From the NCBI RefSeq assembly GCF_000023905.1, contig NC_013192.1, positions 1,550,001 through 1,614,000 of the forward strand: a DNA stretch of 64,000 bases, written 5' to 3'. The position numbers and the translations under genes were made by a program. A model generated the notes under the pieces. The model was not told the DNA's origin. It searched no databases and saw only the letters and a list, made by a program, of their open reading frames with translations. Below, piece by piece: positions 8,418-62,221 of this stretch. Numbering within the stretch: the stretch's first letter is position 1; each line of letters starts with the position of its first letter. Source of the DNA: Leptotrichia buccalis C-1013-b (GTDB lineage Bacteria > Fusobacteriota > Fusobacteriia > Fusobacteriales > Leptotrichiaceae).

Positions 8418-8535
8418 AACACTCTCACACTCCATTTCTTTCTCTTTTTCTTAAATGTGTTTAATAATCTTCTTAGATTAAGATTTTTATATTTTAATTA
8501 ATAATTTTTTCTTTATTTTATATTTTCTCTTTTTT

Positions 8536-8672
8536 TAACGCAAGGGAAATCAATCGCCATTTCCCTTGCATCCCTGGCTCGTCTAAACATTTTTTTGAAA
8601 CAAAATTGAAACTCGCTACGTACAACTTCGCTCAAACAGTCAATTTTATTTCAAAAAAATCACGACATTTTA
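8536..8672. repeat. two-hairpin dispersed element, copy A
   Basis: The element lies between the PLP-enzyme gene and the acetyltransferase gene. Hairpin 1 has perfect 11-bp arms (GCAAGGGAAAT 8540-8550, ATTTCCCTTGC 8559-8569). A linker with GGCTCGTCTAA follows. Hairpin 2 has 21-bp arms (8589-8609 and 8640-8660) with one mismatch, around a 30-nt loop containing CTCGCTACGTACAACTTCGC. It ends in AAAAAAATCACGACATTTT. Copies B (22907-23016) and C (39990-40200) share this plan. Confidence 0.7.
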
Positions 8673-8721
8673 ATTCAATTACAAACTATTATTTTGATTA
8701 AAAATTATTAAAAATAAATTT

Positions 8722-18895: not shown

Positions 18896-19747
18896 TTATT
18901 CAATTTTTTTATTCTGGTTTTCAAAAGAATTTTTATATGATTTGCGATAATTTATGGGAGATATATTTTCTTTATTTTTGAATAGTTTTGAGAAATTTTG
19001 AGCATCTTCTATTCCGACAGACTGTGCAATAATATTGACTGGATAATCTGTCTGAGTCAGCAGTTCCTTTGCTTTTGCAATTCTTAAATTTGTCAAATAG
19101 TCTTTTGGAGCTATTTTCATTTTTTCCTTAAATATTCTGTGCAAATATGTTCTGTCAATGTAAAGAGCTTTTGCAATTTCACTTATGTGTACCGAAGTGT
19201 CAAAATTATTTCTCATAATTTGAAGAGCTTTTGCCAAAATTGTGTTTTTGCTATCTTTTTTAGCATAAGTTAATGGAAAACATTCACTCAAATAATAAAG
19301 GATTTCCAGAAGCCGTGCATTTAAAAGCAAATCGTTATCCTCTGAAATAACTGATATTTCAAATATTTCAACTATCTTATCCCTTATAATATCCCCGCCT
19401 TTTTGTGCTGAAAAAATTGGCTTATTCTTATTAACAGAAGTCCGTCTCAAATATTCAGAAACCATATTCCCTCTAAATCCAATCCAGTAATAAGCCCATG
19501 GCTCGTATTCATCCGCTTCATACCAAATAATTTCCTCAGGCTCAATAAAGAAAAACTCTCCCGCCTTCAGATGAAAAGTCTTCCCTCTGGAATAAAAAGT
19601 CCCTTTTCCTGATTTTATATAATGCAACATATAGCCACTTCTAGTGGTTGGGCCATATTTGTGCAAAGGTTTTGTTTCTTCATATCCGACTGTGTATAAA
19701 AATAGATTTTCATTGTTGTTTGAATTATTAAAAAAATATCTTGCCAT
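18896..19747 (-). CDS. AraC-family regulator of the PTS-GH32 gene
   Basis: The 283-residue protein has an N-terminal cupin-like sensor domain (about 10-150; HYIKSGKGTFYSRGKTFHLKAGEFFFIEP) and a C-terminal AraC DNA-binding domain (about 180-275). The latter has two helix-turn-helix units: HISEIAKALYIDRTYLHRIFKE and VNIIAQSVGIEDAQNFSKLFK. It starts with ATG behind GAGGAG. It is divergent from the sucrose PTS/GH32 fusion, and the two promoters share the same 40 bp, so local regulation is likely (inference). AraC regulators of this cupin type commonly sense a sugar. Confidence 0.88.
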   Translation of the reverse strand: MARYFFNNSNNNENLFLYTVGYEETKPLHKYGPTTRSGYMLHYIKSGKGTFYSRGKTFHLKAGEFFFIEPEEIIWYEADEYEPWAYYWIGFRGNMVSEYLRRTSVNKNKPIFSAQKGGDIIRDKIVEIFEISVISEDNDLLLNARLLEILYYLSECFPLTYAKKDSKNTILAKALQIMRNNFDTSVHISEIAKALYIDRTYLHRIFKEKMKIAPKDYLTNLRIAKAKELLTQTDYPVNIIAQSVGIEDAQNFSKLFKNKENISPINYRKSYKNSFENQNKKIE

Positions 19748-19786
19748 ATTTTTGCACTCCTCTACAAATCAACTTATTTTGTCTAC

Positions 19787-19823
19787 ATTATACCATTGTC
19801 TAAAACTTGAATCAAGGTATAAT
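19787..19823. promoter_or_regulatory. overlapping divergent promoters with central palindrome
   Basis: Plus strand: TTGTCT (19796-19801), 16 bp, TATAAT (19818-19823), towards the PTS-GH32 gene. Minus strand: TTGATT (19810-19815), 17 bp, TATAAT (19787-19792), towards the AraC gene. The palindrome CTTGAATCAAG (19806-19816) lies between the plus-strand boxes and covers the minus-strand -35 box. RNA polymerase could occupy only one promoter at a time. Confidence 0.65.
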
Positions 19824-19907
19824 TTAATCAGAAAAAAGATATATAGAATATTTTTAAACAAAAATAATTTTATAAAAAAGCCACATATTTATAAGGAGGA
19901 AATTTTT

Positions 19908-22748
19908 ATGGAAAGAAAATTTGAAGATATTACAACAGCCATTGCTGAAAAAGTTGGAGGTAGTGAGAATATTCAGTCAGTTACTCACTGTGCAACAAGA
20001 TTACGTCTGGTGTTAAATGATTTTGAGAAAGTTAAAATGGAAGAAATTGAAAATTTAAGGCTTGTAAAAGGGGCATTTGTCGCTGGAAATCAGCTACAGA
20101 TAATATTTGGGGCTGGACTTGTAAATGATGTTTACAGGGAACTGGCAGACTCACTTGGATATTCTGTCAATCATCCATCAGCCAAAACAGCCGAAGAATC
20201 AGCAGTAAAACAGAATCCTTTTCAAAAATTTATAAAATCAATATCTGACGTTTTTATAGAAATAATGCCTTGTATCCTTGCAGCCGCATTATTAATGGGA
20301 CTTACATCCCTTCTTACAACAAAAGGCCTTTTTGGCAACAAAACAATCGTTGAAATGATTCCGCAAATTGCAGGAATTAACAGAATGGTATCAATCGCTT
20401 CAACTGGAATATTTGCATTATTGCCAATGATTGTGGCATATTCGGCTACGAAAAGATTTGGAGGTCGAGCTTCACTTGGACTTGCAATAGGAGCTGTAAT
20501 GATTCACCCTGATTTAGCAAATGCTTTTAGTGTAGCAGGAGGTTCAGCAAAGCCTGAAATAATTAATGTTTTTGGATTAAATATAGAATTAGTCGGTTTT
20601 CAAGGCGGAATAATTATAGCACTTATGATTGGTTACATTGTTGCTTCTCTTGACAAATTCTTTAATAAAGTATTGCCTGACTTAATAAAATTTGTACTTG
20701 CACCAATGCTTACAATTTTAATTTCATCAATTCTGTTATTTACAGTTATCGGGCCGTTTGGACGTGAACTTGGAAACGGATTAACTAACGGACTGCTTTG
20801 GATTGCTGAACATACTGGAGTTTTTGGATATATGCTTTTTGCAGGAGTACAGCAAGTAATTGTAATTACAGGACTACATCACACTTTTGGAGCAATAGAG
20901 GCACAGCTTCTTGCAAGTACAAACCATGATTTCTTAAACCCGCTAATGTCAGTAGCTTTAGTTGCACAAGGTGGAGCAGTGTTAGGGTACATGTTTCTTC
21001 ATCGTAATAACAACAAAACAAAGGAAATCTGCATATCAGCATTTACATCTGTTTTATTCGGTATTTCAGAGCCAGCATTATTTGGTGTCAACATTAAATA
21101 CAAATACCCATTAATAGCAGGATGTATCGCAGGAGCAATCAGCGAAGCCTACGTTTATTTCAGCAAACTGACTGCAACAGGTTTTGGAACAACAGGAGTA
21201 CCTGGTTTTACAATCGTCGAACCTGCAAACAACGGACACTTAAACTTTATAATTGCACATTTAATAGCAGTTCTGGCAGGTATTGGATTAACAATAATGA
21301 TTGGAAAAGTTTACGAGAAAAAAATAAAAAAAGAAGTTGATAAAATGGTTAAAAACAGCCCTTTCAGGCAAAAATTTCACATTGAAGCTCCAAGCGGTTA
21401 TTTAAATGATCCGAACGGCTTTAGCTTTTTTAATGGCGAGTGCAATTTATTTTACCAATGGACTCCTTATATGTATTCATCTGAAAATGTCTGGTATCAA
21501 GGATGGTATCATTTAAAAGGGACTGATTTTCTAACTTGGGAAAAACTGGGAGCAGGAATTGAGGCAGATGAAAGATTTGCTACTCATGGTGCATATTCTG
21601 GAAGTGCTATTGCTGATGATGATAAATTAACAATATTTTACACAGGAAATACAAGAAATGAAGACTGGCAACGGATTCCTTATCAAGTTATTGCTACAAT
21701 GGACAAAAACAATATAATTACAAAACGTGAAAATCCTGAAATCACAGGTATTTTAGATGGATACACCGATCATTTTAGATATCCTAAAATATGGAAAAAT
21801 TTTGATGGGGAATATTACGCAATAATAGGAATACAAAGAAAAAATTTGACAGGAACAGCGGTAATTGCACATTCTAAAGACACATATAACTGGCAAATAC
21901 TGGGAGAAATTGACACAAACCTAAAAAATTTTGGATATATGTGGGAATGTCCTGACTACTTTGAACTCGAAGATAACGGAGTGTTCGTTTTTTCACCACA
22001 AGGATTATATCCGCAAGGGAACGATTATCACAATATTTATCAGACAGGATATTTAATAGGAGATAAAATTGATAAAAACAATCTAAAATTAAATGAAATA
22101 ACTGATTTTCAGGAACTTGACAAAGGTTTTGACTTTTATGCTCCACAATCTACAAGCACACCCGATAACCGCAGAATCCTAATTGGCTGGATGGGACTTC
22201 CTGAAATGAAATATCCGACTGAAAAATACGGATATTGCGGATGCCTAACTTTGCCTAGGGAATTAACAATCAAAAATGGAAAATTATATCAAAATCCAGT
22301 AAAAGAAATTGACAAATATAGAAAAAATAAGATAATTTTAAATAAAGAGGAACTCAAAACTGGAATTTCAGCAGAAAACTCATACGAACTTCAAGCAAAA
22401 TTTGAAAATATAAAAGAATCATTTACCATCGACTTATTTTCCAATGAAAAACACACTGAATACGCCAGAATAAAATATTCAGCCACGAAAAAAGAACTAT
22501 GGCTAGACAGAGGAAATATGGACATCCCTGTAAACGAAAGCCATGGAACAAAAAGACTAATTGCAAATAATCTTGAAAATAATTTAACTCTTGACATTTT
22601 TGTTGACACAAGTTCTATCGAAATATTTGTAAATAACGGAGAAAAAATCGCCTCTTCAAGAATTTTTACAACAAATGAAGAAAGATTTATTTTTGCTGAT
22701 TTAAAAGAAAACGCAGGAAAAATAACTTATGTAGAACTTGATTTTTAA
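19908..22748 (+). CDS. sucrose-type PTS EIIBC fused to GH32 sucrose-6-phosphate hydrolase
   Basis: One 946-residue frame starts at ATG 19908 behind AAGGAGG. Residues 1-90 are EIIB (phosphorylatable Cys28 in THCATRLRLVL). Residues about 110-470 are a glucoside-type EIIC (GLHHTFGAIEAQLL, FGISEPALFGVN, about ten helices). After KVYEKKIKKEVDK the GH32 part begins at Met480: YLNDPNG with nucleophile Asp501, YTGNTRNED, and the ECPD motif with acid/base Glu680. A C-terminal beta-sandwich follows. Uptake would give sucrose 6-phosphate, and the fused domain would cleave it to glucose 6-phosphate and fructose. The RDP motif reads RYP (Tyr625), which is odd. No EIIA domain is present. Met480 could serve as an internal start but has only a weak ribosome site. 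Confidence 0.9.
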   Translation: MERKFEDITTAIAEKVGGSENIQSVTHCATRLRLVLNDFEKVKMEEIENLRLVKGAFVAGNQLQIIFGAGLVNDVYRELADSLGYSVNHPSAKTAEESAVKQNPFQKFIKSISDVFIEIMPCILAAALLMGLTSLLTTKGLFGNKTIVEMIPQIAGINRMVSIASTGIFALLPMIVAYSATKRFGGRASLGLAIGAVMIHPDLANAFSVAGGSAKPEIINVFGLNIELVGFQGGIIIALMIGYIVASLDKFFNKVLPDLIKFVLAPMLTILISSILLFTVIGPFGRELGNGLTNGLLWIAEHTGVFGYMLFAGVQQVIVITGLHHTFGAIEAQLLASTNHDFLNPLMSVALVAQGGAVLGYMFLHRNNNKTKEICISAFTSVLFGISEPALFGVNIKYKYPLIAGCIAGAISEAYVYFSKLTATGFGTTGVPGFTIVEPANNGHLNFIIAHLIAVLAGIGLTIMIGKVYEKKIKKEVDKMVKNSPFRQKFHIEAPSGYLNDPNGFSFFNGECNLFYQWTPYMYSSENVWYQGWYHLKGTDFLTWEKLGAGIEADERFATHGAYSGSAIADDDKLTIFYTGNTRNEDWQRIPYQVIATMDKNNIITKRENPEITGILDGYTDHFRYPKIWKNFDGEYYAIIGIQRKNLTGTAVIAHSKDTYNWQILGEIDTNLKNFGYMWECPDYFELEDNGVFVFSPQGLYPQGNDYHNIYQTGYLIGDKIDKNNLKLNEITDFQELDKGFDFYAPQSTSTPDNRRILIGWMGLPEMKYPTEKYGYCGCLTLPRELTIKNGKLYQNPVKEIDKYRKNKIILNKEELKTGISAENSYELQAKFENIKESFTIDLFSNEKHTEYARIKYSATKKELWLDRGNMDIPVNESHGTKRLIANNLENNLTLDIFVDTSSIEIFVNNGEKIASSRIFTTNEERFIFADLKENAGKITYVELDF

Positions 22749-22906
22749 TATTTCACTTTTATTCTAATTCTTTTATAAAATATCAAATTAACTAGATTCA
22801 TTATTAAAAAATCTAACTTTTTATTTAATAACTATTCTCCTTTTAAATAGTAAATGTTTAATAAAGTTTGAATTACATATTTTATTATGTTTTTTCTTTT
22901 TTTCTC

Positions 22907-23016
22907 GCAGGATTGCTCATTGCCGCAAATCCTGCACCTATGGCCAGTCTATGACATTTTTCTGCACTGACAAAAAGCTCGCTATGCTAAAACAGTTTTG
23001 CCAGTACAGAAAAATG
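22907..23016. repeat. two-hairpin dispersed element, copy B
   Basis: The element lies between the converging PTS-GH32 and msmK genes. Hairpin 1: GCAGGATTGC (22907-22916) with GCAAATCCTGC (22925-22935), loop containing TTGCC. Linker with CCAGTCTA. Hairpin 2: 21-bp arms 22955-22975 (CATTTTTCTGCACTG...) and 22996-23016, with two mismatches, loop CTCGCTATGC. The plan is the same as copies A and C but the stem sequences are different. The remainder of the 22749-23149 gap is AT-rich without other clear signals. Confidence 0.6.
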
Positions 23017-23086
23017 CTTCGACAGATTAGTTTATACTAGATTCTATTTAAAAAGTGAAAATTATATTTTAATCATTTGAAAATAA

Positions 23087-23122
23087 TTAAAAACTCAGAT
23101 AACTTCCAAGCTACCTGAGTTT
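23087..23122 (-). terminator. terminator of the msm operon
   Basis: AAACTCAG (23091-23098) and CTGAGTTT (23115-23122) form a stem. On the minus strand it is followed by TTTTTAATTATTTT, ending transcription after msmK. Confidence 0.7.
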
Positions 23123-23149
23123 AATCAAATATATAAACAACTATTTGGA

Positions 23150-24253
23150 TTACAAACTTATATTTTCTTCAGTTTCTATATCAAAAATATGTGCCTTTGT
23201 CGTATCAAATCTAAATATTTTTTCTACTTTCTGATTTGACAAATCATCAATTCCTTCCACGTTCATTCGACAAGTCAGCTGATAATTTCCTAGCGAGAAA
23301 TAAATATATTCTTCATTTCCCATTTGTTCCACAACGCTCACTTTTCCTTTTTTAGAAACACTGTCTTCTTTTTCAGCAACAGTTATACTTTCAGGACGCA
23401 TTCCAAATGTAACTTTTTTTCCTATGTGTGATTTTAATTTATTGGCTTTTTCTCCTAAAATTTCTATTAATGTTCCGTCTAATGAAAAGTATATTTTTCC
23501 GTTTTCTTCTTTTAATTCCCCATCAATAAGGTTCATTGTTGGAGATCCGATAAATCCTGCAACAAATTTGTTGGCTGGATAATGGTATAAATTTAATGGC
23601 GTATCAACTTGCATTATTTTTCCTGAACGCATTACTGTTATTCTATCTCCCATTGTCATTGCCTCAACCTGATCATGCGTTACGTAAATCATCGTTGTTT
23701 TTAGTTCTTTGTGAAGCTGTGTAATTCTTAGTCTCATTGATACTCTTAATTTTGCGTCCAAATTTGAAAGCGGCTCATCAAACAGGAATACATCTGGATT
23801 TCTCACAATTGCTCTTCCAAGAGCTACCCTTTGTCTTTGTCCACCTGACATTTCTTTAGGTTTTCTATCTAATAATTCTGTAATTTCAAGCTTTTCAGCG
23901 GCTTCTCTCACACGTCTATCTATCTCATCTTTTGGAGTTTTTTTCAATTTTAACCCGAAAGACATATTTTCATAAACTGTCATATGTGGATAAAGCGCAT
24001 AATTTTGGAAAACCATTGATATTCCTCTGTCTTTTGGAGGAACATTATTAACTAGTCTGTCGCCTATATAAACTTCTCCACCAGTAATGTCTTCAAGTCC
24101 TGCAATCATTCTCAAAGTTGTTGACTTTGCACAGCCTGAAGGTCCTACAAACACCATAAATTCCCCATCTTTTATATCTAAATCTATTCCATGAACTGCC
24201 TTAAAACCATTTGGATATTGTTTTTCCACTTTTTTTAATCTTACTTCAGCCAT
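23150..24253 (-). CDS. msmK: sugar ABC transporter ATP-binding protein (MsmK/UgpC type)
   Basis: The 367-residue protein has the N-terminal ATPase of CUT1 sugar importers plus a C-terminal TOBE/regulatory domain (about 240-360). Motifs are Walker A GPSGCAKST (Ala replaces the usual third Gly), Q-loop VFQNYALYPHMTV, signature MSGGQRQRVALGRAI, Walker B VFLFDEPLSNLDAKLR and H-loop YVTHDQVEAMTM. It powers the MsmEFG importer encoded upstream. It may also serve other importers, as MsmK does in streptococci. It is the last gene of the operon and starts behind GGAGG. Confidence 0.92.
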   Translation of the reverse strand: MAEVRLKKVEKQYPNGFKAVHGIDLDIKDGEFMVFVGPSGCAKSTTLRMIAGLEDITGGEVYIGDRLVNNVPPKDRGISMVFQNYALYPHMTVYENMSFGLKLKKTPKDEIDRRVREAAEKLEITELLDRKPKEMSGGQRQRVALGRAIVRNPDVFLFDEPLSNLDAKLRVSMRLRITQLHKELKTTMIYVTHDQVEAMTMGDRITVMRSGKIMQVDTPLNLYHYPANKFVAGFIGSPTMNLIDGELKEENGKIYFSLDGTLIEILGEKANKLKSHIGKKVTFGMRPESITVAEKEDSVSKKGKVSVVEQMGNEEYIYFSLGNYQLTCRMNVEGIDDLSNQKVEKIFRFDTTKAHIFDIETEENISL

Positions 24254-24282
24254 TTATATTCCTCCATTTTTTCTATTTTTAT

Positions 24283-26514
24283 TTATTCAGACTTTAAATG
24301 ATACAATTCAGTATAAAAATCTCCTTCAATATTTCTATGCTCATCATTTGTCCCAACTAAAAGTCCAAAATTCATAAGCTCATCTCCGCCAACTTTTTCA
24401 AATTCAATCTTTTTAGAAGAATTTGCCTTTTTCTTTTCAACTTTATAATCAAATTCTGGATTAAGTCCTGTAAGCCTTACCCTTCGCAATCCGTTATTTA
24501 CAGGCATAAGTATTCTGTAATATCCAACAACTGCCTCTTTTTTATCCTTACTTACCATAAGCCATGCCACTTCATTTCCATCAAAAGGCGATTTCACTCT
24601 ATAAAAATCTCCAGCCGTCATTAACTCACGATACCCCTTAAATTCCTCAATTTGTATTCTAATCTCACCTTTTTCAGCTTCCGACAAATCTTTTGGATTG
24701 AGTTCATATCCAAATGTTCCAAACATTGCCACATTTCCTCTTATATCAAGGCTAGTATTTCTTCCTGTCTGATGATTTGGAGTAATCGAAACGTGTGCTC
24801 CCATCGCTGGCACTGGATATACAATTGAAGTTCCATATTGTATTTTTAATCTGTCTATCGCATCACTATTGTCACTTGTCCAAGTTTGAGGCATATAGTA
24901 AAGCATTCCCGCATCAAATCTATTTCCTCCACTTGCACACGATTCAAACAGTACATCTGGAAATTCTGTAACCAGTCTTTCTAAAACCGAATAAAGCCCT
25001 AAAAAATATCTGTGCCATGTTTCTTTCTGTCTTTTTGCTTCTCTTCCGTATGAAAATACTTCCGTCATTGTTCTGTTCATATCCCATTTTACATATTCAA
25101 TATTTGCTTGTCTCAAGTTTTTGGCTACAGATTCATAAACATATTCTGCAACTTCTGGCCTTGATAAATCTAAATAATGCTGATTTCTTGACTGTGTTTC
25201 ATGCCTTTGGGGAGTTGATAGAATCCAGTCAGGATGTTCTCGATAAAGGTTACTGTTCTTATTTACCATTTCAGGCTCAAACCATAACCCAAATTTAAGT
25301 CCCATTTCGTTTATCTTTTCAGCTAGCCCTTTAATTCCATTAGGCAATTTTGCTAAATTTACATCCCAATCTCCAAGTCCCTGAAAATCATCATCCCTAG
25401 TTCCAAACCATCCATCATCTAGTACAAATAGCTCCACTCCCAAATCTTTTGCACCTTCTGCCATTTTCAGTATTTTTTCCTCATTAAAGTCAAAGTATAC
25501 GCCTTCCCAGCTGTTTAAAAGTATTGGACGTGTTTTATTCTTAAATTTCCCTCTTATCAGATTGTCCTTGTATAAATTATGGAAAGTATTGCTCATTCCA
25601 TTTATTCCTTCATCTGAATAGACTAACACCGCTTCTGGCGACTGAAATTCTTCTCCAGATTCAAGGCACCAGTTAAAATCAAAATGATTTATTCCGATAT
25701 TCAGTCTTGTAACATCAAACTGATCGACTTCTACTGCCGCTGAAAAATTTCCGCTGTAAATAAGATTCAGTCCAATTATTTCTCCTTCTGTTTCAGTCGC
25801 ATTCTTTCTTCTTAGCCCAATAAATGGATTGTTTAAGGCACTGCTTGTTCCTCTTTTACTGTCAATCAGAGTTATTCCTCTTTTTGCCTCACGCTCTATT
25901 ATGTGACGCTCTCTTGCCCACGAACCGCTAAGCTGCATTATCATATAATCAGAATCTGGAAGATCAAGCGAAAGACTCATTATTTTTTCGATATTTATTT
26001 CTTCTGCTCCATTATTTACAATTCTTGCATTTCTCAATATTACAGGATATTCTTCAAATATCGTGTAACTTAGTATCAACTCTGTCTGAATAACTTCGTC
26101 TTCCAATGTAATTTCCAAAGTCTGCACCTTATCATTAGTATTTGCATAAACTGCTGGAAGCCCTTTTAACTGAGGTTTTCCATCTATAATTTTATGACTT
26201 TTATAAACAAAGTTTGTAATTCTGCTTCCATTTTCCTGTAAAATCGACAATGCAGGCTCTCTATAGTCACTTGTACCATAAACAGGATATTCCTGTTTTA
26301 TTGCATCCAGCGTGAACCCTTTTCCATCTACTGACGGAGTTATTGACGGCTCTACTTTATGTCGCTGAAACATATGTGAAAAATTATCTTTATGTCTTAT
26401 TCTTTTTCCAAAATAATATTGTCCTAGCTGCTCATTTTGAAGCAATCCTATTACATAACTTATTTTTTCGTTGTATAAATGAAATTCTCTGTTTTTCTCA
26501 TTAAATTTTATCAT
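24283..26514 (-). CDS. alpha-galactosidase, GH36
   Basis: The 743-residue protein matches the full length of GH36 alpha-galactosidases. Landmarks are WEGVYFDFNEEK, LDDGWFG, LGDWDVNLAKLPNG, GLWFEPEMVN, the nucleophile Asp in YVKWDMNR (about residue 475), the ESCASGG loop, and the acid/base Asp in WTSDNSDAIDRL. It would release galactose from raffinose, melibiose or stachyose imported by the ABC system in the same operon. No signal peptide is present, so it acts in the cytoplasm. The galactose would feed the galKT genes 4 kb away. Confidence 0.94.
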   Translation of the reverse strand: MIKFNEKNREFHLYNEKISYVIGLLQNEQLGQYYFGKRIRHKDNFSHMFQRHKVEPSITPSVDGKGFTLDAIKQEYPVYGTSDYREPALSILQENGSRITNFVYKSHKIIDGKPQLKGLPAVYANTNDKVQTLEITLEDEVIQTELILSYTIFEEYPVILRNARIVNNGAEEINIEKIMSLSLDLPDSDYMIMQLSGSWARERHIIEREAKRGITLIDSKRGTSSALNNPFIGLRRKNATETEGEIIGLNLIYSGNFSAAVEVDQFDVTRLNIGINHFDFNWCLESGEEFQSPEAVLVYSDEGINGMSNTFHNLYKDNLIRGKFKNKTRPILLNSWEGVYFDFNEEKILKMAEGAKDLGVELFVLDDGWFGTRDDDFQGLGDWDVNLAKLPNGIKGLAEKINEMGLKFGLWFEPEMVNKNSNLYREHPDWILSTPQRHETQSRNQHYLDLSRPEVAEYVYESVAKNLRQANIEYVKWDMNRTMTEVFSYGREAKRQKETWHRYFLGLYSVLERLVTEFPDVLFESCASGGNRFDAGMLYYMPQTWTSDNSDAIDRLKIQYGTSIVYPVPAMGAHVSITPNHQTGRNTSLDIRGNVAMFGTFGYELNPKDLSEAEKGEIRIQIEEFKGYRELMTAGDFYRVKSPFDGNEVAWLMVSKDKKEAVVGYYRILMPVNNGLRRVRLTGLNPEFDYKVEKKKANSSKKIEFEKVGGDELMNFGLLVGTNDEHRNIEGDFYTELYHLKSE

Positions 26515-26568
26515 TTTTCCTCCATTTTTCTAATTATATCGTTTCTTGAAAATCAAATTTGTACTTTT

Positions 26569-27396
26569 TTATTTTCCACCACTTAATGCTACTCCATTTA
26601 TAAATTGTTTTTGGAATATTACGAAAATTATTATCATTGGAATGATTCCAAGCACTGAACCTGCCATAAGTACAGGATAATTTGTCGCAAATTGTCCAAT
26701 TAACTGTGCCAACCCTGCTGATAATGGCATTTTTTCAATGTCCGCATTTACAATTAACGGCCACATCAATTCTTTCCAAGCAAATAAAGCTGTAAATATG
26801 CTTAAAGAAATCATTCCCGATCTTGCAAGTGGCAGCATAACGTGAACAAATATCTGCCATTTATTCGCTCCGTCAATTACAGCGGCTTCTTCCAGCTCGT
26901 CAGGTAGCCCCATGAAAAACTGTCTCAACAAAAATGTCCCAAACGCAGTTACAATTCCTGGAAATACCAAGGCTGATATACTGTTTAACATTCCCAGCCT
27001 TTGCACCATAAGATATTGCGGAATAATAAATATTTGTCCAGGCACCATCATTTGAATTAGTACAAACATAAACAAAATATCTCTTCCAGGAAATTTAATT
27101 CTGGCAAATCCGTATGCAGCCATTGCCGCAAAGAACGTAGAAACAACGACTCTTATAACTATAACTATTATTGTATTAAAGTAAAATTTGAAAAATGGCA
27201 ATAAACTTACCGCATCTTTATAATTTTTAAAATGAAAACTTTTTGGCATAATTTTTGGCGGTACTGCTAGAGCCTCAGGCAATGTTTTAAACGAAGTAAG
27301 AAGCATCCATATAAAAGGAATTACCATAAATAAAGCTGTCAATATCAATGCAAAATGAATTAAAAATTTACTTTTATCTTTATATCCTATTTTCAT
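26569..27396 (-). CDS. msmG: sugar ABC transporter permease (MsmG/MalG type)
   Basis: This is a CUT1 permease of about 275 residues with six membrane helices and the conserved cytoplasmic coupling loop EEAAVIDGANKWQIFVHVMLPLARSGM (EAA motif with Gly). The start is put at ATG 27396 (MKIGYKDKSK); upstream GTG codons in frame are possible. It pairs with the MsmF permease encoded just upstream. Confidence 0.9.
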   Translation of the reverse strand: MKIGYKDKSKFLIHFALILTALFMVIPFIWMLLTSFKTLPEALAVPPKIMPKSFHFKNYKDAVSLLPFFKFYFNTIIVIVIRVVVSTFFAAMAAYGFARIKFPGRDILFMFVLIQMMVPGQIFIIPQYLMVQRLGMLNSISALVFPGIVTAFGTFLLRQFFMGLPDELEEAAVIDGANKWQIFVHVMLPLARSGMISLSIFTALFAWKELMWPLIVNADIEKMPLSAGLAQLIGQFATNYPVLMAGSVLGIIPMIIIFVIFQKQFINGVALSGGK

Positions 27397-27448
27397 AAGC
27401 ACAATCACATCCTTCTAATTAATTTTTATTTTCTAATTCGGTCACTTT

Positions 27449-28354
27449 TTAGTAATGCACCCATTTTTTCTGAAGTTTTAACTGAATAAACGTTATTACA
27501 AGTATCACAAGGAAAAGTAAAACTATAATTGCCGATCCATAACCCTTCATATTTCTTTCAAATGAGTATCTGTAAAATAACATTACCACAGACTGGACTC
27601 CCGGCAGTGCCTCATTTTTCTTGTCAATCATCATATAAATTACATCAAACACTTGAAGTGATCCAATAAATGTTGTAATTACAACGAAAAACAATGTTGG
27701 TGTAACTAATGGCAAAGTTATTGAAAAGAATTGTCTGACAGGTCCTGCCCCATCTATTTCAGCAGCCTCATAAAATGTAGGAGAAATTTCCTGCAATCCA
27801 GCCAGCAAAATTATCATATTATACCCAATCATGCTCCAAATTCCCACAACTATTATCGCAAACATCGCCGTACTTGGCTGTAATAACCAGTCAGGCCCTT
27901 TTAATCCTATCGAACTTATCATATTGTTTACTAATCCAAATTTTGAGTTAAACAACCAACGCCATACCATCGCAACTGCTGCAGGGGCTGAAACTACTGG
28001 CAGGAAAAATAATGTTCTGTAAATTGTCTTTCCTTTTATTTTTGAATTTAGAAGTACAGCGATAACTAGTGATAAAAATACTCCCAAAGGAACAACAATA
28101 ATTGTATAAGTAAATGTATTTGCAAAAGACTGCATTACCATTTTGTCTTTAAATATGTCAATATAATTTTGAAATCCTATAAATCTCGATTTACCAAATG
28201 TTCCTGTTTTTGTCAGACTCAAATAAAATGTCTGAAATATCGGAAATATATTTAGTAAAAATAATCCAATCATTGTGGGAGCTATCATAAATAATCCCCA
28301 ACTAAAATCAAGTGCTTTTTTGTTTTTTAAATATTTTGATTTTGTAGCTTTCAC
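27449..28354 (-). CDS. msmF: sugar ABC transporter permease (MsmF/MalF type)
   Basis: The 301-residue CUT1 permease has six membrane segments and an EAA loop (YEAAEIDGAGPVRQFFSITLPL). N-terminal LFMIAPTMIGLFLLNIFPI is typical of this subfamily. It sits between the solute-binding protein gene and msmG, with spacers of about 40 bp. Confidence 0.92.
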   Translation of the reverse strand: MKATKSKYLKNKKALDFSWGLFMIAPTMIGLFLLNIFPIFQTFYLSLTKTGTFGKSRFIGFQNYIDIFKDKMVMQSFANTFTYTIIVVPLGVFLSLVIAVLLNSKIKGKTIYRTLFFLPVVSAPAAVAMVWRWLFNSKFGLVNNMISSIGLKGPDWLLQPSTAMFAIIVVGIWSMIGYNMIILLAGLQEISPTFYEAAEIDGAGPVRQFFSITLPLVTPTLFFVVITTFIGSLQVFDVIYMMIDKKNEALPGVQSVVMLFYRYSFERNMKGYGSAIIVLLFLVILVITFIQLKLQKKWVHY

Positions 28355-28394
28355 ATTTCCACCTCTCTAATTAAAATATTTTTCAAATTAACTT

Positions 28395-29612
28395 TTATTT
28401 TTCTTCTTTCATAAGCCTGTTCATTTTATCCGCATATTCCGTAGTTGCATCTTTTACTGTCACTCTTCCCGAAAACATCGGTGCAAATATTTCTTCTTCC
28501 CAAACTCTCCATTTTGCTCCTTCTTTAGACATTGGAAAAATTACACCAAATTTTATTTGATCCACAAGCACTTTCAAATCCATATTTTTATTATGATCTA
28601 TCCACGCTTGCTGTGTTCCTTCATAAGCTGGTATTGCTGCCACTTTCTCTGACTGTATTCTATTTGCTTTTTCTGAAGCAAGAAATTCTAAAAACTTTTT
28701 AACCATTTCAGGATTTTTAGTGTTAGCTGCGGCTGCATAAGCAAGTCCATTGTAAATTGTCGCCTGTTTTTTTCCCTTTGGCAAATATGTTACTCCAATT
28801 TTTTTCGCAAATTCAGGATTTTCTTCAATTCCTCCCACCATCCACGAACCAAGCTGTATCATAGCCACCTTTTCCGAAGTAAACATCGAGAACGGCTCAA
28901 CTTCATCAAAGTCCTTTTGTGTCGGAGAAACTTTCTCCTTCAAGCTCAAGTCAACCCACCATTGTATTGCTTCCTGTGAAGCCTGTATATCATACCCCGA
29001 TTTATTATCCTTCAACACATATCCATCATTTTGATACATCGTATTCCAGAAACCTTCCTGAACATTAAGTGGTGCCGCAAATCCATAAACTCCGTCTTTT
29101 GTCAACTTTTTGGCAACTTCCAGAAATTCTGCCCAGTCCCAAGTACCGTCAGGATAAGGAACGCCAGCTTTATCAAACAGCTCCTTGTTGTAAAATACTC
29201 CAATTGTGTCGTAATCTTTAGGTACTGCATATTGTTTTCCTTCAAATTGGTAAAGTTTTACAAGCTGTTCGGGATAATGCTTAAATCCATTGTCAATATT
29301 CTTGTCAACTTCCAAAAGCATATTATTTGAAGCATAGTCGTAAAATTTTGTCGAATGCATCCAGAATATGTCAGGCAATGCCCCTCCAGTTGCAGATGCT
29401 TCAAGCTTTGTCCAGTACTCATTCCATCCTATTACCTGAACTTTTATCTTAATCCCAGGATTTTCCTTTTCAAATTCTCTTGCAATCGCACTCATTGCAG
29501 GTTCTTGCTGTCTATCCCAGATTACAAAGGTAAGCTCATTTTTGTTACCTTTTTTGCCACAGCTAAGAAGCATCAGCATTACAATTAGAAATAACATTAA
29601 TAGTTTTTTCAT
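28395..29612 (-). CDS. msmE: sugar ABC transporter solute-binding lipoprotein (MsmE type)
   Basis: The 405-residue extracytoplasmic solute-binding protein (family 1) has a lipoprotein signal MKKLLMLFLIVMLMLLSCG (Cys18). The mature part shows TFVIWDRQQEPAMSAIAREFEKENPGIKIKV, DIFWMH, KQYAVPKDYDTIGVFYNKELF and a Trp-rich C-terminal lobe. It delivers an oligosaccharide to MsmFG. The GH36 partner suggests alpha-galactosides such as raffinose or melibiose (inference). It is the first gene of the operon, divergent from the AraC gene. Confidence 0.92.
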   Translation of the reverse strand: MKKLLMLFLIVMLMLLSCGKKGNKNELTFVIWDRQQEPAMSAIAREFEKENPGIKIKVQVIGWNEYWTKLEASATGGALPDIFWMHSTKFYDYASNNMLLEVDKNIDNGFKHYPEQLVKLYQFEGKQYAVPKDYDTIGVFYNKELFDKAGVPYPDGTWDWAEFLEVAKKLTKDGVYGFAAPLNVQEGFWNTMYQNDGYVLKDNKSGYDIQASQEAIQWWVDLSLKEKVSPTQKDFDEVEPFSMFTSEKVAMIQLGSWMVGGIEENPEFAKKIGVTYLPKGKKQATIYNGLAYAAAANTKNPEMVKKFLEFLASEKANRIQSEKVAAIPAYEGTQQAWIDHNKNMDLKVLVDQIKFGVIFPMSKEGAKWRVWEEEIFAPMFSGRVTVKDATTEYADKMNRLMKEEK

Positions 29613-29665
29613 TAAATTCCTCCTATTTTTTTATTTATAAAATCTTTATTTTATCCAAAATATAT

Positions 29666-29694
29666 TGTATAATTTAATTGAAAAAATATTTCAA
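29666..29694 (-). promoter_or_regulatory. putative promoter of the msmE operon
   Basis: Minus strand TTGAAA (29689-29694), 17-bp spacer, TATACA (29666-29671), about 50 bp before the msmE start. Upstream, TTAAATACC and GGTATTTAA form arms of an inverted repeat (about 29704-29752) that may be an operator. Confidence 0.55.
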
Positions 29695-29815
29695 TATTTT
29701 GAGTTTTAAATACCCAAATTTATAGATATTAAAATCAATTTAGGTATTTAAATACTCTTTTTTAAATTTGCTTAGCTATGTTTCGATACAATTATAGCTT
29801 ATTATTTTTAAATTT

Positions 29816-29852
29816 AAAGAGTAAAAAATTGATATAGGGGTAAAAAAATGCT
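29816..29852 (+). promoter_or_regulatory. 37-bp element shared with the galK upstream region (copy 1)
   Basis: The element contains GAGTAAAAAA and GGGTAAAAAA, half-sites 19 bp apart (start to start), around TGATAT. It matches 34 of 37 positions at 33618-33654. Here it overlaps the ribosome site and ATG of the AraC gene, so it could act as an autoregulatory AraC operator or could simply be conserved 5' gene sequence. Confidence 0.45.
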
Positions 29853-30723
29853 AAAAAAAGATAAAAAATGGATTTTGAATGTTTTTGATTTTGAAAAACC
29901 TTTTCCAATGGTTTTCATTCGTGCAATCGGACGGCACAGCATAAGTGACAAGTCTTATTACTGGGACAGCTCAACTAGAAAGGATAAAAATTTCTGTCTT
30001 TTTCAGTACACATTAAACGGACAAGGCGAAATAAAAATCGGCAATAAAACCTATTCCCAAAGAAAAGACGAAGCCTTTTTCATCACAATTCCTGGTAATC
30101 ATGCTTACTATTTACCACAAAACTCGAATTTCTGGGAAGTTTTATATATCGAATTTTCAATTGAAGCCGATGAATTTGTAAAAAATCTGACAAACCTAAA
30201 CAATAACAGCATTTATAAACTTCAAAAAAATAGTAAGCTGCTAAATCTTATCTGGGAATTTTACTATGCTTCCATAAACAATGAAATAACAGATATCTAC
30301 AAATGCTCGCAATATGCCTACAATATTTTATTTGAATTTTCATCATTATTTGTAACGAAAAAAGAAAAAAATTCAGAATTGATAAAGGAAATAAAAAAAT
30401 ATATCAAAAAAAATTATCAAAAGCCAATTTCCAGCGAGGACATTTCCCGCTACGTAAACGTTTCAAAATCTCACTTAACAAGAAAATTCAAAGCCGAAAC
30501 CAATATTTCACCAGGGCAATATCTAATCCAAACTCGCCTTACAAAAGCAAGAGAACTTCTTCTTGATACCGATTCCTCAATTGAAAAAATTTCCGACTAT
30601 GTAGGTTTCTCCTGTGCAAATTATTTCTCAAAGGCTTTTCGGCATAAATTCAAAATTTCCCCAACAGAATATAGAAATTATTACAAAAATTACTATAAAG
30701 TCAATTTTGTTACAGAAAAATAG
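29848..30723 (+). CDS. msmR: AraC-family regulator of the msm operon
   Basis: The 291-residue protein has an N-terminal cupin-like sensor (about 25-130: FQYTLNGQGEIKIGNKTYSQRKDEAFFITIPGNHAYYLP) and a C-terminal AraC domain (about 185-285) with ISSEDISRYVNVSKSHLTRKFK and IEKISDYVGFSCANYFSKAFR. It resembles MsmR/RafR-type regulators that activate alpha-galactoside operons. It is divergent from msmE, which supports control of that operon; direct evidence is lacking. AGGGG precedes the ATG. Confidence 0.85.
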   Translation: MLKKDKKWILNVFDFEKPFPMVFIRAIGRHSISDKSYYWDSSTRKDKNFCLFQYTLNGQGEIKIGNKTYSQRKDEAFFITIPGNHAYYLPQNSNFWEVLYIEFSIEADEFVKNLTNLNNNSIYKLQKNSKLLNLIWEFYYASINNEITDIYKCSQYAYNILFEFSSLFVTKKEKNSELIKEIKKYIKKNYQKPISSEDISRYVNVSKSHLTRKFKAETNISPGQYLIQTRLTKARELLLDTDSSIEKISDYVGFSCANYFSKAFRHKFKISPTEYRNYYKNYYKVNFVTEK

Positions 30724-30730
30724 TTCAAAA

Positions 30731-30766
30731 AAAATACTACCAAATAATAGTAGTATTTTTTATTTT
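30731..30766. terminator. bidirectional terminator between msmR and galT
   Basis: AATACTAC and GTAGTATT form a stem, with TTTTTTATTTT on the plus side and TTTTTTTT on the minus side. It can end both msmR and galT transcripts, which converge here. Confidence 0.75.
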
Positions 30767-30814
30767 AAAATTTTTATATAGAGAACTTTAATTAAATAAT
30801 TGTCAGATATTTTA

Positions 30815-32377
30815 TCAGATTTCTTCATTTATTTTCTCAATAAACTTCAAAAATCCAGCCTTTCCATTTTCATCATTCTTAAACACTCCACAATCTTCAA
30901 GCACCCGTGAAAACGTTTCCCCAACTGCACTATTCAAAAACAAATTCACATCTCGATTCAATAATTCTGATAAATTTTTATCATTCATATAAATTTTTAG
31001 CCATTCTACGTGTTTTTTCAAATTTTCATTTTTTTCCATTTTTCCAAAGGCATCATCATAATTTTTACAATTATTTAGCAATTCTTCAATTTCCCTCATT
31101 TCATATTTTAATCTTCCAGGAAGAACTGCAAGTCCCATTACTTCAATAAGTCCAATGTTTTCCTTTTTAATATTGTGATGTTCGCTGTGGGGATGAAAAA
31201 TTCCTAATGGATGTTCTGGTGTTGTTAAATTATTTCTTAGTGTCAAGTCAAGTTCGTATTTTCCATTTTTATATCTTGCAATCGGCGTTATCGTATTATG
31301 CCGTTCTTCATCTGTATGTGAAAAAATATTTAATTTTTCGCAAGAAAAATCAATCCAGTTTTGCAAAATTTTATCTGCAAGTTCAACTAGCCTATCCTTT
31401 TCCCCTCTCAATCTTATAACCGACAAAGGCCAATTCACAATTCCAGCTTCGATATCTTCATATCCGCTAAATTTTATTTTCTCAGAAATATTTGCCTTTT
31501 CCATCGGAAATTCATGTCTTCCAGCTTGAAAATGATCATGCGTTAGTATCGATCCTCCTACAATCGGCAAATCCGCATTTGAGCCAATCATATAATGTGG
31601 AAACAGCTCAACAAATTTCAACAGTCTTTCAAAACTCGCCTTGTCAATTTTCATTGGACGATGTGTTCCTGAAAATACAATTGAATGCTCGTTGTAGTAA
31701 GTATACGGCGAATACTGCAAATACCAGTCCTCACTATTCAAATCCAGTTTTATAATTCTGTGGTTTTGTCTTGCAGGATGATTTAAATGTCCTGAATATC
31801 CTTCATTTTCTTTACATAACAGGCATTTTGGGTAATTTGTAGTCACTTTATTTTTTGCCATTGCGATTTCTTTTGGATCTTTTTCAGGTTTTGAAAGATT
31901 TACTGTAATTTCCAGTTCTCCATATTTATTTTTGTAGTTCCAGTACATATTTTTAGCTATTCTGTCTGTTCTTATATAGTTTGACTGTTTTGATATTTCA
32001 TAAAAATAATCAGTTGCAGATTCACGATTTTCATTTCCATATTTTCCCCAGAAAACTTTTGAAATTTCAGATGTTCTTGGTAAGATCTGTCCCATTATTT
32101 TTGCATTTAATAAATCCTTAAATGTAGTTGTATTGGCTATCAATTTACCATTTCTAGCTGCCCATTCAGTTATATTGTCTAGTATTTCTGTCGGATATTT
32201 TACATTTTCCACATATTTTTCTATTTCTTTTCTTTCTTCAGATGAAAATTCTACATAATCAACAATTCCAATACTGTCTAAAATTAAATTTGTAACTAAA
32301 ATTCTATCTTCTGGAAGAACTAATCCATTTTTTACCGAATATTCCATCAATTTTTCTATTTCTACATACACATTCAT
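30815..32377 (-). CDS. galT: UDP-glucose--hexose-1-phosphate uridylyltransferase, class II
   Basis: The 520-residue GalT is of the long class II type found in Firmicutes (N-terminal MEYSVKNGLVLPEDRILVTN). It lacks the E. coli-type zinc layout. Landmarks are CLLCKENEGYSGHLNHPARQNHR, GGSILTHDHFQAGRHEFPM (active-site HDHFQ region) and LFHPHSEH-like IFHPHSEHHNIKKENIGLIEVMG. It converts galactose 1-phosphate to UDP-galactose. Its ATG overlaps the galK stop by 4 bp, so the two are coupled. Confidence 0.93.
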   Translation of the reverse strand: MNVYVEIEKLMEYSVKNGLVLPEDRILVTNLILDSIGIVDYVEFSSEERKEIEKYVENVKYPTEILDNITEWAARNGKLIANTTTFKDLLNAKIMGQILPRTSEISKVFWGKYGNENRESATDYFYEISKQSNYIRTDRIAKNMYWNYKNKYGELEITVNLSKPEKDPKEIAMAKNKVTTNYPKCLLCKENEGYSGHLNHPARQNHRIIKLDLNSEDWYLQYSPYTYYNEHSIVFSGTHRPMKIDKASFERLLKFVELFPHYMIGSNADLPIVGGSILTHDHFQAGRHEFPMEKANISEKIKFSGYEDIEAGIVNWPLSVIRLRGEKDRLVELADKILQNWIDFSCEKLNIFSHTDEERHNTITPIARYKNGKYELDLTLRNNLTTPEHPLGIFHPHSEHHNIKKENIGLIEVMGLAVLPGRLKYEMREIEELLNNCKNYDDAFGKMEKNENLKKHVEWLKIYMNDKNLSELLNRDVNLFLNSAVGETFSRVLEDCGVFKNDENGKAGFLKFIEKINEEI

Positions 32378-33534
32378 AATTTTTTCGCTCCATCACTTAT
32401 ATTTACAACATAAAAATCAGCATCCAGCCCAACTTTTTCCTTATATTCCTTTCCAACATTCTCAATAAACTTATCCACAGCGTCCTTTTTAACAATACTG
32501 ATTGTACATCCTCCAAATCCAGCTCCAGTCATTCTTGAGCCAATTACACCTTCCTGATTCCAAGTAATTTCAACCATTGTATCAAGTTCAATTCCAGTAA
32601 CTTCATAATCATCCCTAAGCGACACATGAGACTCATTCATAAGCCGTCCAAATTCTTCCAAATTTCCTTCCATTAATTCTTTTTGTGCCTTTATTGTTCT
32701 TTGATTTTCGTAAATAGCGTGTTTTGCCCTTTTTCTATTAATTTCATTTTTTATAAGTTTTTCACTTTTATTAAATTCTTCAACCGAAAGTTCCCCTAGT
32801 GACTGAATATCCAACTCCTTTTGCAAATCCTTCAAAGCCTCTTCACATTCAGCCCTTCTCTCATTATATTTTGAATCTGCAAGCCCACGTTTTTTATTTG
32901 TATTTCCAATAACAAGCACCTCATCTTTTAAAATAACTGGTGCATAGCTATATTTTAATGTATTGCAGTCAAGCAGGATTGCATTGTCCTTTTTTCCCAT
33001 TCCAACTGCAAACTGATCCATTATCCCTGAATTTACACCAATAAACTGATTTTCAGCTTTTTGGCTCAATTTTACCATTTCAACCATATCAATGTCCAAA
33101 TTATACAAATCCTTTAAAATAATAGATGTAACAATTTCTATCGAAGCAGAAGAAGAAAGTCCAGAACCATTTGGAATGTTCCCATAAAACAGCACATCAA
33201 ATCCGCTATCAATCTTATACCCAGCTTCAATAAACATTCTTACTACACCTTTTGGATAATTAACCCATTTATGCTTTTTCTCATTTACTAAATTATCTAA
33301 CAAAAACTCAATAATTCCAAGATTTTCAAAATTTTCTGAATACATACGAAATTTTTTATCATCTCTCTTTTTTACCAAAGCATAAGTTCCCCTATGAATC
33401 GCACACGGAAAAACATGCCCACCATTATAGTCAGTATGCTCTCCGATAAGATTAACTCTCCCTGGAGCAAAAAATTTACTTTCGGCTTCATAACCAAAAA
33501 GATTTTTGAATTTATTATAAAGTTTTTCTAACAT
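32374..33534 (-). CDS. galK: galactokinase
   Basis: The 386-residue GHMP kinase has the galactokinase signature GRVNLIGEHTDYNGGHVFPCAI, the ATP-binding GSGLSSSASIEI, the catalytic region GVNSGIMDQFAVGMGK and the C-terminal GSRMTGAGFGGCTI. It phosphorylates galactose at C1. No galE or galM is in the window, so the epimerase must be encoded elsewhere. Confidence 0.95.
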   Translation of the reverse strand: MLEKLYNKFKNLFGYEAESKFFAPGRVNLIGEHTDYNGGHVFPCAIHRGTYALVKKRDDKKFRMYSENFENLGIIEFLLDNLVNEKKHKWVNYPKGVVRMFIEAGYKIDSGFDVLFYGNIPNGSGLSSSASIEIVTSIILKDLYNLDIDMVEMVKLSQKAENQFIGVNSGIMDQFAVGMGKKDNAILLDCNTLKYSYAPVILKDEVLVIGNTNKKRGLADSKYNERRAECEEALKDLQKELDIQSLGELSVEEFNKSEKLIKNEINRKRAKHAIYENQRTIKAQKELMEGNLEEFGRLMNESHVSLRDDYEVTGIELDTMVEITWNQEGVIGSRMTGAGFGGCTISIVKKDAVDKFIENVGKEYKEKVGLDADFYVVNISDGAKKL

Positions 33535-33617
33535 TATTATATCCTCCTGTTCTGTTAAGTTTACACTTAAATACTATAAACTTTCTTACTATGTTATATC
33601 ACAATATTCCAAAAATA

Positions 33618-33654
33618 AAAGAGTAAAAAACTGATATGAGGGTAAAAAAATGCT
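33618..33654 (+). promoter_or_regulatory. 37-bp element shared with the msmR upstream region (copy 2)
   Basis: The element lies 84-120 bp upstream of the galK start, in the same orientation relative to the minus-strand operon as the copy upstream of msmE. It keeps the two GTAAAAAA half-sites 19 bp apart. An ATG at its end opens only an 8-codon frame, so here the conservation is not explained by a gene. Confidence 0.45.
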
Positions 33655-33690
33655 TATTTTTTTAGTAAAATTTTGATATTTTTGTTTATT

Positions 33691-61513: not shown

Positions 61514-62221
61514 ATGAATAAATATGAAAAAGTATATCACGATATAAAAGATAAAATTAAAAATGGTAAACTAAAGCCTGGAGATTTTCTAAAAAAAGAA
61601 GACGATTTGGCACTAGATTATAATTTTTCCAAGCTGACTGTAAGAAAAGCTCTCTCCATGCTAGAAGCAGAAGGCTATATTCAAAAAATAAAAGGTAAAA
61701 AATCTATTATACTTGAGAAAAAAAATCTAGAAAATATTTCTTTGACTTCCATTCAAACTGTACAAGAAATTAACAAGCTTCAAAATATTCATCTTGAAAC
61801 TGAACTAATCAGTTTATACATCGTTCAAGGGATCAAAAAACTAATGGAAGAATTTCAAGTACCTGAAAGTGCTGATTTTTATAAAGTTGTCCGTACCAAT
61901 TCTTTAAATGGAGAAGTTTTAAATTATTCTACGAGTTTTTTTGACAGAAAAATTGTACCTTTTCTAAATGAAGAAATAGCAAAAAAATCAATATATGAAT
62001 ATCTGGAAAAAGAACTTAACCTAAAAATAGCTTATTCACGTAGAGATATTAGTTTTAGAAAAATTACTTCTGAAGAACAGAAATATCTTAAGCTAGAGGA
62101 TATAAATATGGTTGTTGTTATTGAAACTCATGCCTATCTTTCAAATGGCACTCTATTTCAATACGAAACAATTATTCACCATCCTGAAAAATTTACTTTT
62201 AGTGCAATTGCAAAAAGATAA
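61514..62221 (+). CDS. GntR-family (UTRA) regulator of alpha-glucoside genes
   Basis: The 235-residue protein has an N-terminal winged-helix GntR domain (about 1-70: YEKVYHDIKDKIKNGKLKPGDFLKKEDDLA, SKLTVRKALSMLEAEGYI) and a C-terminal UTRA effector domain (about 85-232). GntR/UTRA proteins in this setting bind phospho-sugars (TreR, MalR-like). It is divergent from GH4 and convergent with EIICB, so it probably controls both. A second ATG at 61510 opens only three codons (ATGAATGAATAA) overlapping the true start. Confidence 0.9.
   Translation: MNKYEKVYHDIKDKIKNGKLKPGDFLKKEDDLALDYNFSKLTVRKALSMLEAEGYIQKIKGKKSIILEKKNLENISLTSIQTVQEINKLQNIHLETELISLYIVQGIKKLMEEFQVPESADFYKVVRTNSLNGEVLNYSTSFFDRKIVPFLNEEIAKKSIYEYLEKELNLKIAYSRRDISFRKITSEEQKYLKLEDINMVVVIETHAYLSNGTLFQYETIIHHPEKFTFSAIAKR

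Follow-up and report, generated by a model that had tools for sequence, protein, structure and literature searches.

A PTS permease and a GH32 domain lacking a catalytic aspartate share one open reading frame in Leptotrichia buccalis

Introduction

Fusion of a PTS permease to EIIA or EIIB is frequent. Neither the genomes nor the literature searched yielded a second PTS permease fused to a hydrolase that would act on its product. Among the closest described systems are the ScrA/ScrB pairs (TIGR01996/TIGR01322), which match the protein described here in domains and domain order, but in which the permease and the hydrolase are encoded by adjacent genes, sometimes only 0 to 3 nt apart (L002, L004). 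In the L. buccalis C-1013-b protein, by comparison, both are part of one polypeptide, the sucrose IIBC score is under the equivalog cut-off, and the GH32 half is without the Asp of the RDP motif.

In GH32 enzymes the Asp of the NDPNG motif is the nucleophile, the Glu of the EC motif the acid/base, and the Asp of the RDP motif, which hydrogen-bonds O3'/O4' of fructose, the transition-state stabiliser (PMC3360783). The Lactobacillus gasseri triad consists of Asp47, Asp167 (RDP) and Glu222 (PMC7833758). We report here the analysis of the fused gene and of its surroundings within a window of 64,000 nt, the whole stretch of DNA that was analysed.

Results

The segment 19908–22748 (+ strand) is a single uninterrupted frame of 946 codons coding for EIIB, EIIC and GH32. 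It starts with an ATG at 19908, its stop ends at 22748, and the 946 residues are read without internal stop. The frame is not a chance one. It is preceded by a strong Shine-Dalgarno sequence (AAGGAGG, 19893–19899, + strand), with an anti-SD duplex of -11.1 kcal/mol versus a median of -7.1 for 37 gene starts in the window. Four Pfam matches, all well over gathering scores, were obtained along the translation: PTS_EIIB (residues 11–42, 19938–20033), PTS_EIIC (residues 113–409, 20244–21134, with a GISEP motif at residues 385–389), Glyco_hydro_32N, the five-bladed propeller (residues 491–797, 21378–22298), and Glyco_hydro_32C, the C-terminal beta-sandwich (residues 809–925, 22332–22682). With PF00367 and PF02378 over cut-off and the phospho-Cys kept, the first half belongs to the sucrose/trehalose-type PTS EIIBCs. 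The candidate phospho-acceptor is Cys28 in THCATRLR (codon 19989–19991), a Cys in every aligned sequence covering that position. The hydrolase half scored 469 bits with TIGR01322 (scrB_fam, cut-off 356), which places it in the GH32/ScrB family, and its best structural match among solved structures is 6nu7, the L. gasseri sucrose-6-phosphate hydrolase. A single 946-codon frame with a sucrose-family EIIBC and a complete GH32, as proposed in an earlier sequence-only reading of this DNA, was thus confirmed by translation, Pfam and NCBIfam. The sucrose IIBC model TIGR01996 gave 484 bits versus a cut-off of 559, so that sucrose is no more than a candidate for the sugar carried by the EIIBC half. A further EIIC-EIIB permease is encoded at 62351–63940 of the window, with a divergent GntR/UTRA regulator at 61514–62221.

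Homology to EIIBC reaches approximately residues 472–477 and homology to GH32 begins at approximately 470–478, so that the two coding halves meet in one frame with almost no linker. In the AlphaFold model (37 sequences, mean pLDDT 88, pTM 0.77), the linker IKKEVDKMV (residues 474–482, 21327–21353) has a block pLDDT of 86–98, and the last transmembrane helix of EIIC is predicted to continue through it (helix 440–482) into GH32. The sister protein L062 has an EIIA domain at the same C-terminal end, from which the GH32 half should be cytoplasmic. The placement of the hydrolase on that side of the membrane, as first suggested, is thus supported by analogy.

The EIIBC and the hydrolase were expected to be normally separate genes, and this holds in every relative inspected. 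The nearest relatives overall have EIIBCs 70–75% identical and GH32s about 49–51% identical to the fused copy. In a Bacillaceae genome (L094 in G942) identities are 54% for araC, 71% for EIIBC, 51% for GH32 and 55% for GH36, and in Enterococcus plasmids (L144/L145) 61%, 72–75%, 51% and 45%, respectively. The order in L094, L145 and L147 (an L. ultunensis plasmid) is a divergent araC, EIIBC, GH32 and a GH36 alpha-galactosidase, all as separate genes. EIIBCs at 56–59% identity lie mostly in LacI-scrA-scrB-scrK operons, and a few beside GH36 (L091, L098). On E. faecium plasmids, the EIIBC is frameshifted in L145 (8001–9470), and EIIBC, GH32 and GH36 are in pieces in L146 (571–5666).

Comparison of the junctions revealed a shortening in L. 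buccalis. From the end of the EIIBC (YEKK) to the SPYRQ position there are 33 nt in frame, whereas in L094 this interval measures 146 nt and the reading frame shifts. The E. faecalis EIIBC ends with IGKIYEDK and a stop at 473 aa, and the hydrolase there has 28 residues before SPYRQ; the equivalent stretch is about 150 nt long, a 68-nt intergenic part included. Relative to both, some 110–120 bp are absent, corresponding to the EIIBC stop, the hydrolase start and its first 25–28 codons or so. This is more than any single base error could remove. One case that would have undone the fusion, relatives with two genes and a base error here, therefore stands in its first part only: relatives with two genes exist, but the gap is too large for a single base error and the assembly is finished (9.7x Sanger and 42x 454 coverage, with a stated error of less than 1 in 100,000; PMC3035221).

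A single base error could still decide whether the remaining halves share a frame. The junction contains the sequence A7-T-A7 (21318–21332, + strand), and a one-base change in either A7 run breaks the frame. If a surplus A had been called in the first run (21318–21324), there would be two real genes: an EIIBC of 472 aa ending with IGKVYEKK and a stop, at the position at which the E. faecalis protein terminates, and a shortened GH32 starting at Met480 (ATG at 21345–21347), the sole candidate for a separate start near the junction. Homopolymer runs are the classic 454 error, and the A7 suits it; the fusion is, moreover, seen in one genome only. The quality of the finished assembly speaks against such a miscall, and a separate GH32 would be without the roughly 25–28 N-terminal residues of its closest homologues. 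The Shine-Dalgarno before Met480 is very weak (about -1.5 kcal/mol, computed at 21346, one base off), 67% of internal ATGs being at least as good, and Met480 was rejected as an ordinary internal start. Finally, GH32-homologous sequence extends upstream of Met480: the fusion residues preceding SPFRQ align there with the N-terminal helix of ScrB-type enzymes. Two separate genes are thus improbable, although this explanation survives best among the alternatives to a fusion by deletion.

The same architecture was looked for elsewhere, a search proposed in the sequence-only reading for Leptotrichia and other Fusobacteriota. None of 98 Fusobacteriota genomes gave another stop-free match across both domains. 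Conservation of the fusion across Leptotrichia or Fusobacteriota was rejected, all full-length matches having a stop between the halves; an apparent open frame of 972 aa in G027 was also discarded, TGA AAT ATG separating the two genes. In the nearest full-length Fusobacteriota matches (Cetobacterium and others), EIIBC and GH32 lie in one frame, with one stop, 0–3 nt apart. This is the arrangement of scrA and scrB in L002 and L004 (Fusobacteriaceae), in which a change in that stop codon alone would be enough to produce a fusion. No EIIBC-GH32 fusion was found in sampled Bacilli (398 genomes) and Clostridia (391 genomes), nor in the order Bacillales (397 genomes), under an E-value limit and with two candidates scored per genome, so that a weak fusion could escape; nor was any found in a sample of one Bacillales family (80 genomes). 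In the six plasmid records inspected, out of the best 15 of 573, EIIBC and GH32 were present as two genes or as broken copies, the nearest of these 15 records being from Enterococcus and Lactobacillus. A phage collection contained partial or unannotated matching records, two of them human faecal records of about 6 kb with two-piece matches, and a scan of viral contigs for the junction was without yield.

The fused gene lies in an island of about 14.8 kb (18950–33690), delimited by blastn synteny with related Leptotrichia genomes (G005, G007 and G009), in which it is missing at the syntenic site and the flanks are close together. Horizontal acquisition is the simplest inference. Divergent from the fused gene is an AraC-family regulator (18896–19747, - strand), orthologous to those of L094 and L145 (54–61% identity); searches of the 12 other genomes of Leptotrichia did not find it. 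Convergent with the fused gene is an alpha-galactoside operon (23150–29612, - strand) encoding an MsmK-like ATPase, a GH36 alpha-galactosidase (24283–26514, - strand), two permeases and a binding protein; among 13 Leptotrichia, the GH36 and the binding protein were found in L. buccalis only. A second AraC regulator, galT and galK follow (29848–33534). Both this island and the nearest clusters are alpha-galactoside systems of raffinose/melibiose type rather than plain scr operons. Just downstream of the fused gene, an element of about 210 bp (22883–23088), possibly a small mobile or repeat element, has 88% identical copies elsewhere, one in the same genome near the other scrA-scrB (L042:12678–12869) and one in another Leptotrichia (L122:11409–11620). 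A second stretch of about 210 bp (8494–8703 of the window) has displaced copies, 81–82% identical, in related Leptotrichia (L118, L120).

Inspection of the GH32 half revealed an incomplete catalytic triad. The nucleophile Asp501 in NDPNG (21408–21410) and the acid/base Glu680 in WECPD (21945–21947) are intact, both residues being shared by all 81 sequences aligned. In contrast, the Asp of the RDP motif is replaced by Tyr625 (TAT, 21780–21782), a position that is Asp in 80 of 80 homologues, in 6nu7 and in the unfused sisters of Enterococcus, Bacillaceae and Lactobacillus. The substitution makes hydrolysis by the fused protein doubtful, and hence also channelling: most likely, judging from these residues, the GH32 half is without a useful rate of sugar-phosphate hydrolysis. 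Neither the direct channelling of sucrose 6-phosphate nor the union of four activities in one protein, both put forward in the sequence-only reading, is supported. Departures from conserved columns number eight in the GH32 half (rank 1 of 52) versus two in the EIIBC (rank 6 of 33), and the alignment indicates no change in the EIIBC half comparable to the lost Asp.

The GH32 half contains no stop or frameshift, and its domain stays well folded in the AlphaFold model. The branch of the fused copy is long (0.71), but so is that of its unfused sister (0.60), and other cluster pairs span identities that include a GH32 at 49% alongside an EIIBC at 70%. These similar branch lengths and unexceptional identities do not clearly point to free decay, an explanation that was not retained for the GH32 half.

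Other residues set the subfamily apart from canonical ScrB: Gln531 in place of a Lys (L. gasseri Lys74), a change at Trp776, and a 3-residue insertion before WYQGW. The Enterococcus and Bacillaceae copies likewise have Gln at 531, Tyr or His at 776 and the insertion, and the departures common to the fused copy and its sisters are probably the signature of a subfamily that has a substrate of its own. The assignment to a sucrose system accordingly holds for the two protein families, a sucrose-family EIIBC and a ScrB-family GH32, but these departures and the alpha-galactoside-type context make sucrose uncertain as the substrate. In the same genome, RDP is intact in two other GH32 genes (L042 and L043), and a separate scrA-scrB is present elsewhere. 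Another GH32, beside an EIIBCA (L133:3814–5337), reads GDPNG instead of NDPNG, a change also reported for a non-induced L. gasseri copy (PMC8401598).

Discussion

We consider it probable that the L. buccalis gene is a single-lineage fusion made by deletion, encoding a permease that carries a crippled, probably non-working hydrolase domain. An araC-EIIBC-GH32-GH36 cluster, of a type known in Bacilli and on Enterococcus plasmids, would have been acquired by the L. buccalis lineage, probably by transfer. Loss of about 110–120 bp would then have joined the frames, the deleted DNA comprising the stop of EIIBC, the sequence between the genes and the hydrolase start with its first 25–28 codons or so. 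The predicted product is a working PTS permease, in which a separate EIIA would phosphorylate EIIB at Cys28, and the phosphate would go on to the sugar crossing EIIC. Its cytoplasmic C-terminus would bear a folded GH32 domain, joined by a short rigid helix and most likely idle on account of Tyr625, and one of the two separate GH32 enzymes would take over hydrolysis. The fusion is known from one genome of one strain, so that a base error at the junction or at 21780 is conceivable.

The fusion could also be real and on its way to becoming a pseudogene, the PTS and hydrolase of the island being redundant and both halves being lost. The catalytic loss in GH32, the separate scrA-scrB of the same genome and the breakage of the same cluster on E. 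faecium plasmids (L145, L146) would fit such a process. However, 946 open codons, a strong Shine-Dalgarno and an EIIBC with so few departures from conserved columns do not, and we regard it as unlikely, second in rank after the two-gene alternative. Third comes a functional fusion, in which the EIIBC would hand the sugar phosphate directly to an active GH32 pocket at the cytoplasmic face. The single frame, the topology (EIIA at the same end in L062) and the short helical linker agree with it, as do the kept nucleophile and acid/base, the unbroken GH32 half and the lack of clear rate acceleration of that half beyond its sister. It is nevertheless doubtful, given a Tyr seen in none of 80 homologues, an architecture present in no second genome among those searched, and two further intact GH32 genes. 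Least probable of all is a pseudoenzyme, the catalytically dead GH32 half being kept to bind sugar phosphate as it arrives and to sense or hold it at the permease mouth.

If the fusion is real, nature supplies in it a simple experiment on the benefit of tethering the second step; the loss of the catalytic Asp suggests that tethering does not act in that manner here. If the join is instead a base miscall, the L. buccalis type-strain record needs correction. In addition, the locus places in an oral Leptotrichia an alpha-galactoside cluster common to Enterococcus plasmids, one of which comes from a dental-school sample.

Among known systems, the clusters of the E. faecium HY07 plasmid, the L. ultunensis plasmid and the Bacillaceae genome G942 have an orthologous regulator, an orthologous EIIBC, a GH32 of the same subfamily and a GH36 nearby. 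They differ in having separate genes and an intact RDP, whereas the L. buccalis GH36 belongs to a convergent ABC-transporter operon. In the EIIBCA permeases (such as L062), too, the EIIBC is extended by a further domain at its cytoplasmic C-terminus, but theirs is a phosphotransfer EIIA and not a hydrolase. Finally, AgaSK of Ruminococcus gnavus, an alpha-galactosidase/sucrose kinase characterised biochemically as bifunctional, resembles the present case in that two successive raffinose/sucrose-phosphate steps are fused, in an araC-type cluster, but it has no transporter part (PMC6521584).
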